A DNA stretch of 25,900 nucleotides, from the IMG/VR virus record IMGVR_UViG_3300048014_000435, positions 1 through 25,900 of that record; one strand, 5' to 3'. The translations under genes were made by a program, and so were the position numbers. This document shows positions 1,025 through 17,465 of this stretch, piece by piece (within the stretch, counting starts at the first letter, position 1; every line of letters starts with the position of its first letter). A model generated the notes under the pieces. It ran no database searches, had not been told where the DNA came from, and was given only the letters and a program-made list of their open reading frames with translations. The DNA comes from a virus.

Positions 1025-1599
1025 TCAAAACAATCCGTCGAAATGTCGCTGCTCGGCCGCACGTCTGCACTCTAATGCCCATTCGTTTCGAGGCACTGTT
1101 TTCCCGCAGTACTCAAAAAACTCAACGACATCCACCGCGTCTTCAAGAAGTAAGAGCGATGGCAAAACGCTATTTCCCAACAGCGTCAACCGTTGCCATC
1201 GCTGGAAAGTTTTGGGCCAGATTGTCCCGTTGCCAGATCTATAACCTGCGTCGGCCACGCTGCGGACATGTGCTCAACAGATCTAAAACTAAACAGTGTG
1301 TCTAAATCGGCGTCACTGAGCTCGTAATTCCATCCGAGCATGAATGCACCAAGCGAGGCGATCGCCGAAATGGTTCCACAATCATCGACGCTGGCACGAA
1401 TGGCATCAATTAAGTCCTCCATTTCTTGGCCATACGTCAGCACCGATCGTACTCTCGCGACCTTACCATCGCGGAAGCACGGTTGGATCTCGAGCCATGG
1501 CTTTGGAAAATACCAAGTCTGTGCATCGCCAAGAACAACCGGCACCGAATGCTCCAGCTCAAAGCTGGAACGGCGTCGGCTCTTTTCGTCAATCACCAC
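1025..1599 (-). CDS. Frameshifted tail assembly chaperone (GT-like, 191 aa)
   Basis: A -1 slip on CCCAAAA joins the first 130 codons of the 137-codon frame to the overlapping -1 frame (61 codons, ending at 1025), giving 191 residues. The extension begins TFQRWQRLTLLGNSVLPS and has helical segments (LLLLEDAVDVVEFFEYCG, LECRRAAEQR). The downstream ORF has no credible own start: its only in-frame GTG lacks a ribosome binding site. The layout matches the conserved G/GT arrangement of long-tailed phages, where the extended form binds the tape measure and tail tube proteins. Coordinates cover both frames, with the change of frame at 1210. Confidence 0.75.
1155..1216 (-). promoter_or_regulatory. Programmed -1 frameshift signal: slippery site and stem
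   Basis: The heptamer CCCAAAA (1216 down to 1210) is read as C-CCA-AAA in the upstream frame and fits the X-XXY-YYZ rule. Six bases (CTTTCC) separate it from a perfect 11-bp stem whose 5' arm AGCGATGGCAA spans 1203-1193 and whose 3' arm TTGCCATCGCT spans 1165-1155, with a 27-base loop that contains the upstream stop codon. Extra CG pairs can extend the stem with a two-base bulge. Confidence 0.8.
1186..1599 (-). CDS. Tail assembly chaperone, unshifted product (G-like, 137 aa)
   Basis: The frame starts with GTG after a strong AGGAGG six bases upstream. Helical sections such as MEDLIDAIRASVDDCG (about 61-76) and GWNYELSDADLDTLFSFRS (about 90-108) fit tail assembly chaperones, which bind the tape measure protein while the tail grows. 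It lies after the tail tube gene, where G/GT-type chaperones sit. Near its end it carries the slippery heptamer C-CCA-AAA and it stops at 1186-1188, in the loop of a long stem. The unshifted protein would be the abundant form. Confidence 0.72.
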   Translation of the reverse strand: MVIDEKSRRRSSFELEHSVPVVLGDAQTWYFPKPWLEIQPCFRDGKVARVRSVLTYGQEMEDLIDAIRASVDDCGTISAIASLGAFMLGWNYELSDADLDTLFSFRSVEHMSAAWPTQVIDLATGQSGPKLSSDGNG

Positions 1600-2983: not shown

Positions 2984-5900
2984 TCACGAAACTCGCCGTA
3001 GTCCGGGAAACCACCGAGCTGAGTCAACAGATTTTGTTCTAAATGACCAAGAAATAGTACCGGTTAGTGGTTTCCCCATAACGCTCGAGCCGCTAGTCAC
3101 CGTTACAGTGTAGCGTGTTGCTCTGGAAAGCGGAGCCAGGGGTGTGAGAGTTGCTTCCCGAGACGAGGTATTGTAACTGAGTGTTGTAGGAACAACTTGG
3201 CCTATGCTAGTTGTTAGTGTTAGGTTCAGCGTTGTTGAATTCATCGGAAGCGAGAAAGTAACAGTTGCGGGACTTCCAGTTGACACATTGCTCGCACCAG
3301 AGTACGGTGTGACTGTTATGATTATAGGAGATGGTGCAACGTTCGCGGCCCCGACGTAATCCTGATACGCCTGCAAGGCCGGGATTGTGTTGTTCTGTAA
3401 CTGATTCCGGCCTGTTTGATACCAGAACTGGTTTCCGGTGCCACGGCCCGGCTGCTGGCCGTACCACTGAGCCATCGCCCACACTGTTTTCCCGACATCG
3501 TTGAGCAACGCAAATATGTTGAGCAGCGTCATGCCACCCGCTTGCTGGACACCCACGTACGCCATGAAGATGTCGTACATGCCCGGCATGCTAAGGATGT
3601 CTTGCTGTAACCTGAAATACAGACCAGGATCTTTATAACTCACAGAGCCGCCGGTTGGGTTCTGCATGTTACCTTCATACCCGACGACCTGGCAGTTGTA
3701 GCCCGTGGCCGTGTTGTACGCCGCAACGGCCGCATTAAGGTACGAGTAAGTGCCCGCGTACTGCCCGTTGGTCCCCGTGCCCTGAAAGCCTTGCCCGTAT
3801 AGCTGATCGTGCTTGATCAGGTCGCAAACCATCTGTTGTGACCAAGGCTGCGATGTCCCGTATGCCACCGAATACGGGACGCCTGGAGCGAAACTTGCGG
3901 TCGCGGCGGCAAAAATAGGATCGCTCGGAGCCCCCGAGTAAGGAGCCACTCCAATCGCGTCTATCTGGATCGGCCCCGATAGTCCGAGCAGACCATACAC
4001 AGCCTGGTTCGTGGCCAAGTTGAATTGCGTACCGGCCGAACCGTATCCACTTGATATGAACTGACTGCTGACGAACCTTACGATTTCGCCCCCACGACCA
4101 ACGGCCGCGAAAGCGTTGTATACGATCTCATGACACTGTGCGGCCCGGACCAAGGCACCCTCGTAGTTATTGACCTTAGATCCGTTGGTCATCAGGGCGC
4201 CAAGAGATGCACTCCAGGGCGATTGCCAAGCTTCGGAGTTCCACTCTTCGTTCGAGTATTCCACGTAGACCTTGCGGCCAGGTGGCAAATATTCGAGCAC
4301 CAGATTCGCATACTCCAGTACCAGCGTGTCACTAGCACAGTGCGGAATCGTCAGCCAGAAGTCGGCACCCGGCATCGCCCCCGCGACCGCACAAGCCACT
4401 TCCATCGGGGTTGTCGAAAGGTCGGGAACCTGTACCGATACTGTATAGTTGGTGGTCGAAACCGTACCGTTGATTGAGGGAACGCCACCCGGAACGCCGG
4501 TATTGTTTGTCACGCTCGAACTGTAAATGCCGAGCGCGAATGTTGTAGCGCCCGTCACCCAAACGATGTAGCCACTGAGGTTTCCGAGCGAAAGTGATAC
4601 TGTCCCGGCGCTTCCGTTCGGAACCGTGACGGTAAACGCATACTGGCCGCTTCCAAGCGAAAGCGAGATCGCTTGCCCTGTCTTCAAACCGTGAGGTATC
4701 GACGTGACAAACTCGGCGCCGTACCAGTTAACTGGATCTGTTCCTGCTGACGCGGCAAGATAGTTCAGGGTCGCGGGCGTGAACTGATAAAGTTGCGGAG
4801 AACCCGTCGGCGCTGCCGTTGTTCCAGGGTAATTTGCCGCCGTATAAACGTAAGGCGATGTCGTGAGATTGTAATTTCGGATCGCCGTGATACTGATCGA
4901 TCGTGAAAAATTCGTGATCGCGTTCGTCACACTGGAGCCGTCGGACCAGCCAAGATAGCTGGGCATCTGCCGATCCGCAGGATCGACGACGTTAGTGTTA
5001 CCTGAATAACCACACGTAGAATCCATCGCACGCACGCACGCTGATGCGGTGCCGACCGAAGACGTCAGGTAATTCACCATCTGCTGATCGGGAGCCGTCG
5101 CGATGCGGGCAAACGAGGTCGCGTACGGCGAGAAGATCCAAGCATTTTGCGTTGTGTTCGTGACCGTCGCGCCGATGGAATAATTGGCGTTCGACAAGAT
5201 CACGCCAAGATGGGCCGACCAGCTCGACGGATTGGCGGACGTGTACGTCACCCGGTACGTATTGGAGATCCCGACCAAAACTCCGTTCGTCAAGGTGCCG
5301 GGGCTGCTCGCCACGAGCGTACAGTTCAAGAGACCAGACGCACCGTAAATGGTGTACTGGTTCGGTGCCGAAGGGTTGGTGTCGTCCCACACGGAGGTCC
5401 AGAGACCGGTACTGTAACCAGTACCACCATTCGTGATCGTAAGGCTCGTCACGGCACCGCCGCTGACCGTGGCCGTCGCGGTCGCGCCTTGTCCGCCCGG
5501 CCCCCAGATCGATACTGTCGGAGCCGACGTATATCCCGAGCCGCCATTCGTGATCGTAAGGCCCGTGACAGCACCCCCGCCGACCGTAACAGTGACGGTT
5601 GCCGCCGCGCCCGTCCCACCGCCCCCCGAAAACGTGGCGATCGGCGCCGCCGGTTGCGGCGTTTCCTTGTTGTCAATAGCATTGCTGTTTTCGGGGGTAT
5701 AGAACAAACCATAGCAGCCATTCGGCGAACTCGTGGTGTTTCCGTTCAGATACGTGATCGGCGTGTCGCCGGGCTGGTTGGACGTCAAGGCTCCAAACCA
5801 TGGCGTTTGAACCTTGTGAATCCAGTTCGCCGATATCGAATAACAACCGCTGTAAGTCGCGATCGGGTCCGTCAGGTTCGCCCCGAGCTGCATCGGGGTC

Positions 5901-8668
5901 TTGCCAGGCGCGACTTGGCCTGTCGCGATCGCATGAAAAGCGGGCTCATCGACCCCTGTATAATTGCTGACGAATCCGTTCTGGACAGGCCCCGCCAAAT
6001 TGCCGTTAAGGGCAGTCGCCCATCCCGAGGGAGCCGAATACGTGAAAACGTCCGTGGCGGACGCCTGCGAAGGCAGGGGAATACACACCCACGGATCATT
6101 CACGCTGGTCGGAGTGCCGACCGCGCTCAGTTGCACCGTCACACTCGCGCCACTGCCCGTGGGGTCGTTGACCGTGACATTCGGGGACGACGTATAGCCT
6201 GAGCCGATATTCACCAGGGCAACGCCAGTCAGGTAGGTCGCGGCGATGGTTGGTTGTGCCGCCGCCCCCGTCCCGCTGCCGAAAACCCAAACGGTCGGCA
6301 ACATCGTGAAATTGCCGGCCGACCCGCTGATCGCGATCGCCGTGACGGCGCCACCCGACACCGTGGGTGTCAGGGTGTAATTGGTGCCCGAGAACAAGAC
6401 CGTCGGCGGCGACGTGTAGCCCGATCCGCCATTGGTGATCGTCACACCATAGATGACCAGCGAATTATTACCGCTGTTGTACCCCGTACTCATGGTCGCG
6501 GTCGCGCCTGAGCCGCCACCGCCAACCAGGATTACGCTCGGGACCGTAGAACCACCGTAGTACCCGCTGTTCCCCAGGTAAATGGCCGTGACAACCCCGC
6601 CGGTCACGAACGCGGTGGCGGTCGCGATGTTCCCAGAAGCGTTGCCTTCAAGGTACACCGTCGTCCCCGACGTGTAGCCGGTTCCACCAGCCGTCACCGT
6701 GATGCCCGTCAAGGCCGACGACGGGAACATCGCCGCCGCGACCGCTCCCGTCCCGCCACCACCCGTGAGCGCGATCGTTGGGGACGTGTAGCCCACGCCG
6801 CCCGCTCCGATGATCGACGTCACGGCGCCGCCAGACACCACGGCCGTGCCAGTGGCTGGCATGATACTCGCTGCCGCTGTTGTCGTGACGGTTGGGGCCG
6901 ACGTGTAACCGGAGCCACCGTTCGTCACCGTGTAAGCAACAACACAAACGTTCCCATCGACCGTCGCGCTAATCGGGGTTGCCGCCGCGCCCGTCCCACC
7001 GCCCCCTGAGAAGTTGGTATAAAGTGTATATGTCAGGTTGCTGCCACAGCCCGCAAGGTACGCTCTCAGGATCAAGGCGGGCGTGATCGGCGAGCCATTC
7101 TTCAGGACCGTCGGAACCGTGTTGACGTAGAGCACCGGATTCAGGGCAGCGCCAAGCGTCACCGACGCCACGGCTCCTGTTCCGGTAGGGTCGCTGATCG
7201 TGATCGTTGGAGGAGCGATCGCGTAATAGTTCGTCCCGCCCGCCAGGACCGGAATACCGACGATCTTGCCGTTCACAACGATCGGCTTGCCGAGCGCCGC
7301 ATTCGTTCCGGCGGGCGATGCCGTGATGGTGGCCGTCGGGTTGATGTAGCCAGTGCCCTGAGCCGTTACCTGAACACTCAGGACTGATTGTTCGTACGTC
7401 CCCACATTGTTGACCAGTGCACCGCCTGCCGCCGCCTGGGCCAGAAACAGGAAGAGTTGCTGACCCGATTTCGAGATATAGGCATCGCCAACCTTCGCCG
7501 GGAACGAATAGGACAGCACTTCCGAAGCATAGACAGCACTTCCAGTACCCGACTGTGTCCACGTAATGGCGGTCGAAGCCGTGCCGTGATTTGTGAAACC
7601 AAGGGCGGTAACGCTTGGCGAGCCACCCGCTTGGTTAGCCCCTAGACTGAAGTAATACGAGGCAGGAACCGAGATTGAACCGGGATTCGCTGTACGGTTC
7701 AGTAAAGCGGCCACTTCACTGGCGGTAACGACATGCGTCGTCCATATAGCGAAGTCCGACATTGACACCGACCCGCCACCGGAAAACGCGGTGCCGTTGC
7801 CGAGCACTAGATCGGTTGTGGTGTACGAAGTTTGTAGCGTTTGAGCGATGAAGCTGGTCGCGACAAGAGCGCCATTCAGGTACGCGCACTGCCGGGGAGT
7901 ACCAAGTGTATTTGGCCCAGATCCAGAGTCCCACGTCAGCACCAAGTGATACGTAGTACCCGCGATGATCGGTGTCGTTGCCGTAAGGGATGTGTTATTC
8001 GCGCCTGCCAGCGATCCAGTGATGCTCCCTGGGTAAGTAATACCAATACTACCGAAACTCGGGTGCGCGTTAAGCAAGTTTGCAGACGTCGGTAGCGGCC
8101 CGTTGAACCGAAACCAAAGCTGCATTGAGAGCTGGTTGAGACCCGATAATCCCGAGAAGTAATTACTGGTGAATTGCCACGGAGGCGTCGAAAGGGTGTT
8201 TCCTGATGGAGGTCCGTTGAGTGCATACCTTCCAATCGACGACTTGCCACGCCGGAACGGGATCGTTCTGGTGATGGGCCGCTGGACACCCGTCAGTGCG
8301 ACGATCTGCGGCGCGAGCTTGAACCGAGAGGTTCCGTCGGGCGCGACCCGGTTGAACGCGGCGCCGTTGAACGTCGATCGCCACAGGGGCGGCGTGACCG
8401 TATTGTTCGCGTTGAACTGACTCGTATTGAACGGCGTGCTATTGAACGTGCTGACCGGCTTGACGGCCCCAGTTGTCCCCGAAAACGCCGTTCCAGGAGC
8501 CGGACCCAGCCACGCCCCGCGCATGCTGGACCCACGCCGAAACGGAATCGACCGCGTCACGGGACGACGCGGCGACGGGAACACGACCGGCTTTCCGGAC
8601 AGCCCCACGGCCCCGTTGAAAGCCGACGTGTTGAACGCCGGTACGTTAAATGCTGATCCGACCGCCAT
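2984..8668 (-). CDS. Giant multidomain adhesin/glycosidase-like virion protein (1894 aa)
   Basis: Domains in order are as follows. Residues 1-150 hold FN-pentad repeats (AFNVP AFNTS AFNGA type) with a duplicated segment, RPVTRSIPFRRGSS (35-48) and RPITRTIPFRRGKSS (130-144). Residues 165-325 are LamG/concanavalin-like. Residues 435-850 contain about nine GGSGYTSAPTV-type repeats, with two more at 1010-1090. Residues 1100-1780 form a glycosidase-like TIM barrel with VYVEYSNEEWN (E1474 as acid/base candidate) and VVGYEGN (E1665 as nucleophile candidate). An insert around 1318-1410 begins EFVTSIPHGLKTGQA, and 1778-1878 is a bacterial Ig-like (Big_5 type) domain. It probably binds and cleaves host surface polysaccharide. 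No signal peptide is present. The repeats interrupt the barrel's N-terminal half. Confidence 0.85.
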   Translation of the reverse strand: MAVGSAFNVPAFNTSAFNGAVGLSGKPVVFPSPRRPVTRSIPFRRGSSMRGAWLGPAPGTAFSGTTGAVKPVSTFNSTPFNTSQFNANNTVTPPLWRSTFNGAAFNRVAPDGTSRFKLAPQIVALTGVQRPITRTIPFRRGKSSIGRYALNGPPSGNTLSTPPWQFTSNYFSGLSGLNQLSMQLWFRFNGPLPTSANLLNAHPSFGSIGITYPGSITGSLAGANNTSLTATTPIIAGTTYHLVLTWDSGSGPNTLGTPRQCAYLNGALVATSFIAQTLQTSYTTTDLVLGNGTAFSGGGSVSMSDFAIWTTHVVTASEVAALLNRTANPGSISVPASYYFSLGANQAGGSPSVTALGFTNHGTASTAITWTQSGTGSAVYASEVLSYSFPAKVGDAYISKSGQQLFLFLAQAAAGGALVNNVGTYEQSVLSVQVTAQGTGYINPTATITASPAGTNAALGKPIVVNGKIVGIPVLAGGTNYYAIAPPTITISDPTGTGAVASVTLGAALNPVLYVNTVPTVLKNGSPITPALILRAYLAGCGSNLTYTLYTNFSGGGGTGAAATPISATVDGNVCVVAYTVTNGGSGYTSAPTVTTTAAASIMPATGTAVVSGGAVTSIIGAGGVGYTSPTIALTGGGGTGAVAAAMFPSSALTGITVTAGGTGYTSGTTVYLEGNASGNIATATAFVTGGVVTAIYLGNSGYYGGSTVPSVILVGGGGSGATATMSTGYNSGNNSLVIYGVTITNGGSGYTSPPTVLFSGTNYTLTPTVSGGAVTAIAISGSAGNFTMLPTVWVFGSGTGAAAQPTIAATYLTGVALVNIGSGYTSSPNVTVNDPTGSGASVTVQLSAVGTPTSVNDPWVCIPLPSQASATDVFTYSAPSGWATALNGNLAGPVQNGFVSNYTGVDEPAFHAIATGQVAPGKTPMQLGANLTDPIATYSGCYSISANWIHKVQTPWFGALTSNQPGDTPITYLNGNTTSSPNGCYGLFYTPENSNAIDNKETPQPAAPIATFSGGGGTGAAATVTVTVGGGAVTGLTITNGGSGYTSAPTVSIWGPGGQGATATATVSGGAVTSLTITNGGTGYSTGLWTSVWDDTNPSAPNQYTIYGASGLLNCTLVASSPGTLTNGVLVGISNTYRVTYTSANPSSWSAHLGVILSNANYSIGATVTNTTQNAWIFSPYATSFARIATAPDQQMVNYLTSSVGTASACVRAMDSTCGYSGNTNVVDPADRQMPSYLGWSDGSSVTNAITNFSRSISITAIRNYNLTTSPYVYTAANYPGTTAAPTGSPQLYQFTPATLNYLAASAGTDPVNWYGAEFVTSIPHGLKTGQAISLSLGSGQYAFTVTVPNGSAGTVSLSLGNLSGYIVWVTGATTFALGIYSSSVTNNTGVPGGVPSINGTVSTTNYTVSVQVPDLSTTPMEVACAVAGAMPGADFWLTIPHCASDTLVLEYANLVLEYLPPGRKVYVEYSNEEWNSEAWQSPWSASLGALMTNGSKVNNYEGALVRAAQCHEIVYNAFAAVGRGGEIVRFVSSQFISSGYGSAGTQFNLATNQAVYGLLGLSGPIQIDAIGVAPYSGAPSDPIFAAATASFAPGVPYSVAYGTSQPWSQQMVCDLIKHDQLYGQGFQGTGTNGQYAGTYSYLNAAVAAYNTATGYNCQVVGYEGNMQNPTGGSVSYKDPGLYFRLQQDILSMPGMYDIFMAYVGVQQAGGMTLLNIFALLNDVGKTVWAMAQWYGQQPGRGTGNQFWYQTGRNQLQNNTIPALQAYQDYVGAANVAPSPIIITVTPYSGASNVSTGSPATVTFSLPMNSTTLNLTLTTSIGQVVPTTLSYNTSSREATLTPLAPLSRATRYTVTVTSGSSVMGKPLTGTISWSFRTKSVDSARWFPGLRRVS
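6119..7366 (-). repeat. GGSGYTS-type glycine-rich repeat tract inside the giant gene
   Basis: The coding DNA holds about nine degenerate copies of a unit that translates as GGGGTGAAAT ... GGAVT ... TNGGSGYTSAPTV. Copy lengths differ, and some copies have diverged (for example SGSAGNFTMLPTV and VNIGSGYTSSPNV), which indicates an old expansion. Two further, cleaner copies lie at about 5399-5641. Recurrence of the GYTS core and of the GGAVT strand makes a repeated beta-arch or beta-solenoid-like fold likely. This is a protein repeat, not a CRISPR or integration repeat. Confidence 0.75.
8219..8668 (-). repeat. FN-pentad and IPFRRG repeats at the N-terminus of the giant protein
   Basis: Eight copies of an xFNxx pentad occur in three clusters (residues 6-20, 74-86 and 99-107). 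Two copies of an RP(V/I)TR(S/T)IPFRRG segment (35-46 and 130-141) follow. The five-residue period with a central Phe-Asn differs from the classic A(D/N)Lxx pentapeptide repeat. Such N-terminal modules may attach the protein to the virion. Confidence 0.65.
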
Positions 8669-16658: not shown

Positions 16659-17465
16659 TCAGTAGGATCGAAATTGAACCGCTGCCGATTTCGAGCGATA
16701 ATCAGAATCCAAGGCTCGGCCGCACCGCTCGTATAAACCTTCTGCACGTGTAAACTCTGGCGTCGTTCTACCGGACCAATTGGCACCCATCGTTGTTGCT
16801 TTGTCTGACTTCGTCTCCAGGTGAATTGCGATCAGCTCCGGAATCAATGCCCGATCGCGCCTGTCCCATTGAATTGCATGCAACACATCGGTGTGTTCGG
16901 CCGTCCCTTGAAACTGAACCGGATACCTATGGATACCAGAGCGGTTCACATTCCAAAGCTGAAAAAAGCCGAGCGGGCAGTATCCACCATAGTCAAAATG
17001 AGCGATTCTTGCTCCAAATGGCATGCCTCGGGGCGCGTGAATCATGCACGAACTCTCGAATTGAAGATCGGTAGAGCTCCTGAGCCGGTCCCAAGCCTCC
17101 CGACCAGTGCAATTCACACGGTCGCATCCAAAAAGCTTCGCTGGATCGAGGTCGATCCGGTCAAGAATATTACGAGCGTTAGGTGGCAGTACTATATCGG
17201 AATCAAGGTGAAGTACCCAGTCTTTCAAGCTCAAGTTGGCTAAACCGTAATTAATACCTCTAGCCTTATTGAATACAGCTCCATCATTATAGAAACACCG
17301 TGTCGGCAAGCATCGGACACCATGGCGATGACACAGTTGCCTTGTACGCTTGTCTTCAGGCGTTGTAACCACGACAAGCTCGTCAACCTGAGACATTACA
17401 AATGGCAGTGTTTCCGCCAGGAAGTCGGCGTAGTCAACACATACAGTAACAGCTTCAACTCGCAT
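16659..17465 (-). CDS. GT-A fold glycosyltransferase in the capsid gene cluster
   Basis: The 268-residue protein has the features of a family-2-like GT-A glycosyltransferase. It starts with a short beta strand (EAVTVCVDYADFL), then VDELVVVTTPEDKRT (27-41) and NKARGINYGL (66-75). The metal-binding DSD is in WVLHLDSDIVLPP (83-95; D88, D90), and a late HLET segment (215-218) could supply the C-terminal His. Such enzymes transfer a sugar from a nucleotide donor. No membrane segment is seen, so it acts in the cytoplasm. Its placement between portal and scaffold suggests modification of capsid or fibre proteins, or of DNA bases, but this is inference. Start ATG has no clear ribosome binding site, and a 31-codon frame upstream overlaps it and could couple translation. 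Confidence 0.82.
   Translation of the reverse strand: MRVEAVTVCVDYADFLAETLPFVMSQVDELVVVTTPEDKRTRQLCHRHGVRCLPTRCFYNDGAVFNKARGINYGLANLSLKDWVLHLDSDIVLPPNARNILDRIDLDPAKLFGCDRVNCTGREAWDRLRSSTDLQFESSCMIHAPRGMPFGARIAHFDYGGYCPLGFFQLWNVNRSGIHRYPVQFQGTAEHTDVLHAIQWDRRDRALIPELIAIHLETKSDKATTMGANWSGRTTPEFTRAEGLYERCGRALDSDYRSKSAAVQFRSY

Follow-up and report, generated by a model that had tools for sequence, protein, structure and literature searches.

The overlapping reading frames orfA and orfB very probably constitute a G/GT-type tail assembly chaperone gene of a tailed phage infecting Planctomycetes, in which the long product A-B is made by a −1 slip. Both lie on the window, the whole stretch of DNA that was analyzed, which is an entire virus contig of 25.9 kb with recognizable terminase, portal, capsid and scaffold genes. 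A programmed −1 frameshift had been proposed here in a preliminary description made from the sequence alone; it is supported by the signal itself, by conservation over 22 loci, by coding selection on B and by natural A-B fusions. The features of the region are listed in Table 1.

Table 1 Features of the orfA/orfB pair and its neighbors in the window.
Feature	Position	Strand	Remarks
Putative major tail (tube) protein, ~138 aa	2447-2022	minus	68-73% identity in six relatives
Small conserved gene	1978-1589	minus	between the tube-like gene and orfA; 57-59% identity over ~92 residues in G003 and L018
orfA, gpG-like short product, 137 aa	1599-1186	minus	GTG start at 1599
Slippery heptamer CCCAAAA, in frame C_CCA_AAA	1216-1210	minus	CCA and AAA are orfA codons
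orfB, −1 frame extension (T-like domain)	1212-1025	minus	61 codons past the slip; stop at 1027-1025
6-nt spacer CTTTCC	1209-1204	minus	between heptamer and stem
Candidate stimulatory hairpin	1203-1155	minus	outer and inner helix, 5-nt bulge, GGGA loop
orfA stop TGA	1188-1186	minus	within the hairpin, 21 nt past the heptamer
320-aa gene after orfB, low-complexity	963-1	minus	at the tape-measure position

The heptamer had been placed in the correct position and frame on the minus strand, and the coordinates given for the 6-base spacer and the perfect 11-bp stem were exact (1203-1193 pairing with 1165-1155, 11/11 pairs). RNA folding of the slip region, which had been suggested as a check, yielded a stable hairpin and, in the minimum free energy (MFE) structure, an additional inner helix of 9 bp (1187-1179 pairing with 1174-1166); a 5-nt bulge separates it from the outer stem, on which it stacks. 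With its 20 pairs the hairpin reaches −28.9 kcal/mol (z −3.8), and none of 200 shuffled sequences folded as low. The orfA stop codon had been assigned to the loop; it does lie within the hairpin, but two of its three bases are paired in the inner helix that was missed before. Of the dinucleotide-shuffled sequences, 9.8% had an in-frame XXXYYYZ motif at some point of the 88-nt overlap, and the heptamer alone is therefore weak evidence. A perfect stem of at least 11 bp at a spacer of 4-9 was found in 0.01% of shuffles, and heptamer and stem jointly in 0 of 20,000 dinucleotide shuffles. The site had also been called a textbook case. The parts of the signal are correct, but the wording is somewhat strong: C_CCA_AAA was not found as a named slip site in the frameshift literature looked through for it, and the gene downstream of orfB in the window is not recognizable as a tape measure.

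A direct search of a phage collection and of viral contigs with A gave no match, nor did terminase and portal queries in the phage collection. Through a portal search we reached G003, a relative of 33.4 kb that ends with genes for a tube-like protein, a small protein, A, B in the −1 frame and then a protein with a different N-terminus. A profile of two tube-like sequences brought up five loci from assemblies of Planctomycetales and Isosphaeraceae; 398 genomes of that class were then searched with a seven-sequence profile, and 23 of them had matches. Portal homologues were present in those of these genomes that were tested (n = 16). Where coordinates were checked, portal and terminase genes lay ~12 kb upstream on the same strand, which identifies the relatives as phage loci. 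In the resulting set of two-frame loci, where A and B occupy different frames, the window is joined by 21 others, nearly all of them in genomes of Planctomycetes. A second A homologue in one genome (L076 in G011, ~6.1-6.4 kb from the far end, minus strand) was left out of the locus counts. Its frame continues into KTFARLL, which resembles the start of B, before it ends; the homologue is possibly a decayed fused copy.

B lies in the −1 frame relative to A in all 22 two-frame loci, and C_CCA_AAA is present in frame in 18 of them (the window and 17 of the 21 others), with the A stop codon following 3-27 nt past it. Among these loci the identity of A to that of the window is often only 26-46%. Elsewhere in these A genes CCA accounts for 12 of 184 proline codons and AAA for 7 of 39 lysine codons, so that codon habit does not explain why the heptamer was kept. 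Each of the 21 loci that were folded has a hairpin just downstream of the slip site, mostly beginning 4-8 nt past it in the MFE structures, and 0-2 nt past it in L018 and L061. For a 60-nt segment starting at +3, the mean energy percentile along the gene was 0.21 versus 0.5 expected; by the same measure three loci (L017, L055 and L058) have hairpins that do not exceed the remainder of the gene in strength. The hairpin sequences differ among subgroups, compensatory changes are few and pairwise covariation is modest. A downstream stimulatory structure is not obligatory in known cases of G/GT-type chaperone frameshifting.

B is protein-coding and under selection in its own frame. The DNA that encodes B only, past the A stop, has an excess at the third codon position of the B frame in every subgroup (e.g., 0.16/0.09/0.45), and conservation in this frame begins at the slip, the residues before it not being conserved. 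The 191-residue fusion predicted earlier, with 61 codons past the slip, is correct when counted from the GTG at 1599. An AGGAGG lies ahead of the orfA start at 1611-1606 (minus strand). A second GTG at 1596 fits the orfA homologues better and would give a fusion of 190 residues. The B part may be missed or mis-started by a gene caller that works from start to stop codon.

The statement that orfB has no plausible start of its own was nearly right, since the window has a GTG ahead of the slip, at 1258, that opens a 77-codon frame, and in several relatives an ATG or GTG precedes the slip by 43-61 nt. B might thus be a separate gene, started inside orfA by coupling or internal initiation, with heptamer and stem incidental. 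We regard this as highly unlikely: in five loci (L018, L054, L056, L057 and L070) the B frame offers no ATG, GTG or TTG ahead of conserved B, conservation starts at the slip and not at an upstream codon, the heptamer is kept beyond codon bias, and B is fused in frame to A in five further loci. In no homologous locus did B stand as an independent gene with a separate start. The comparison with homologues that had been named beforehand as a test of the frameshift thus came out in its favor.

The heptamer is not universal. It holds in the 18 loci above, and four close relatives (G003, L018, L019 and L022) have CGG_TCT_TTT_CGC in place of C_CCA_AAA. In the last A codons of L017, L018, L019 and L022, twelve bases, CGGTCTTTTCGC, are invariant where CCCAAAA would stand. 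CGG_TCT_TTT_CGC is apparently a non-canonical slip site, and judged from its codons the event is likely a one-tRNA slip, in which tRNA-Phe would move from TTT to the overlapping TTT. The helix in this subgroup begins 6 nt past TTT (hairpin from +7), which places it two codons further on than the helix of the window; slip site and hairpin appear to have moved together.

In another five loci (L064-L068), A-B is a single continuous ORF of 176-188 residues. Models built from the two-frame loci only recognized B in these proteins at E-values of 3e-13 to 5e-16 and A at 7e-11 to 3e-14, which gives independent support to the fusion as a real product. No canonical heptamer remains near the A-B junction. 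In four of the five (L064, L066, L067 and L068), a second, A-only gene lies directly behind the fused one; these loci have the two-gene form, a long-form gene plus a short-form gene with no slippery site at the junction. On the tree of the tube-like protein they cluster, with one change versus a shuffled mean of 3.8, compatible with either direction of change. The fifth (L065:3259-3816) has no second A gene and no tape-measure-like gene; its next gene begins 9 nt after the fused stop, and portal and terminase lie upstream in the same genome.

Given such one-frame relatives and the origin of the window as a single metagenomic contig, we considered whether the two frames reflect a sequencing error or a decayed gene that was once one A-B frame. 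This can be given practically no weight: the −1 arrangement is common to 22 loci from independent assemblies, by which an artefact is ruled out, and both frames are under selection. We think it probable that within one family of Planctomycete phage chaperones the route to A and A-B has shifted: most loci use the C_CCA_AAA slip, one subgroup a single-tRNA T_TTT slip, and a sister group no slip but an A-B fusion plus a second A gene; the sole fused locus without an extra A is also without a tape-measure-like gene.

The assignment to tail chaperones is supported by position, by the A/A-B design and by the predicted fold of A. The AlphaFold2 model of A (pLDDT 78) has a four-stranded sheet with helices. 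Among viral models it matched A0A6J5LCU1 from an uncultured Caudovirales phage (BFVD) at E 3.3e-7 with probability 1.00, TM-scores of 0.70/0.73 over 127 columns and only 20% identity; this was the only match below 1e-3, and its name, "tail assembly chaperone", is an annotation that is possibly transferred. A fold search of the PDB with A gave no match, which is not proof of a new fold. Searches of Pfam, PHROGs and NCBIfam with A and its homologues returned only isolated single-member matches of no functional meaning, and B had no match in Pfam. The chaperone role proposed in the preliminary description is thus backed by the fold match, gene order and short/long design, but by no profile match for A or B.

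The neighboring genes come in the order tube-like gene, small gene, A/B and tape-measure-position gene, these neighbors being placed by position and not by sequence or fold. The tube-like gene is always just upstream of the chaperone pair. Its product is a putative tube protein by size and position; Pfam and PHROGs contained no named family for it, and its structure model (pLDDT 32) was unusable. The 320-aa gene behind orfB is without recognizable similarity. At this position the protein begins with M..(L)II.(A)RFD in G003, L018, L019 and L022, and it has 512-723 aa in L061-L063 and L020-L021. In the window, L053-L060 and L070 the gene encodes a low-complexity protein of ~205-373 aa; if this short gene is the tape measure, the tails would be very short.

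Because A and B match no sequence family and the tube and tape-measure neighbors are unnamed in PHROGs and Pfam, the frameshift could be real and the pair yet be some other assembly protein of the phage, produced in two lengths, in line with the fused protein being kept in L065 though a tape-measure-like gene is absent. We consider this unlikely, as the single significant viral fold match is named a tail assembly chaperone, the pair sits directly ahead of the tape-measure position and follows the small conserved tube-like protein, and a short form together with one ~60 residues longer follows the lambda G/GT design.

In phage lambda, the tail chaperones gpG and gpGT are made by a −1 frameshift; in the lambda model the short part binds the tape measure and the T part the tube subunit (PMC5009743). 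The frameshift of tail assembly chaperones in general is likewise described in PMC5009743; Xu, Hendrix and Duda 2004 is cited there and in PMC10885494. The window resembles lambda in having a short A and a predicted long A-B from a −1 slip near the end of A, in the likely position within the tail region and in the X_XXY_YYZ form of the heptamer. It differs from lambda in the slip site C_CCA_AAA with a strong downstream hairpin, in the host group Planctomycetota and in A and B proteins that show no sequence relation to a chaperone family of Pfam or NCBIfam or to one named in PHROGs. The A/B family is very probably a sequence-divergent one of the lambda G/GT kind, and the type of frameshift itself is already known.

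For T4-like phages, a two-gene chaperone is described as an alternative to frameshifting (Vladimirov et al. 2022, as cited in PMC10885494). As far as that citation describes them, they resemble L064, L066, L067 and L068 in combining a fused long-form gene and a short-form gene without a frameshift, and differ in that here both solutions occur inside one family, the window itself using the frameshift. Our analysis adds phages of Planctomycetota to those with a tail-chaperone frameshift, by way of a gene family unknown to sequence libraries. This family offers three natural variants of one design, namely a canonical heptamer, a non-canonical slip site and a fusion with an extra A gene, so that the question why phages keep G and GT, and in which ratio, becomes testable by comparison. 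The clade with a fusion plus an extra A gene in place of slippage is its most informative part.

For the window, the following account of slippage, of how often it happens and of what A and B bind is our inference. Most ribosomes would read orfA to its TGA, giving the short protein A. At C_CCA_AAA a minority would be stalled by the 20-bp hairpin that begins 6 nt further on, and would move back one base, the peptidyl-tRNA-Pro moving from CCA to CCC and the tRNA-Lys from AAA to AAA. These ribosomes would go on in the −1 frame and produce A-B, ~191 residues long. If the lambda model applies, the tape measure protein would be covered by many A molecules, and tube subunits would be brought in through the B part of A-B.

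Two further genes of the window were recorded on the minus strand. Between portal and scaffold lies a family-2 glycosyltransferase gene (16659-17465; Pfam PF00535, E 3e-6). A gene at 2984-8668, flanked by the capsid genes on one side and the tail chaperone region on the other, encodes a repetitive protein of 1894 residues with a C-terminal Ig-like domain (Big_5, E 5e-15).
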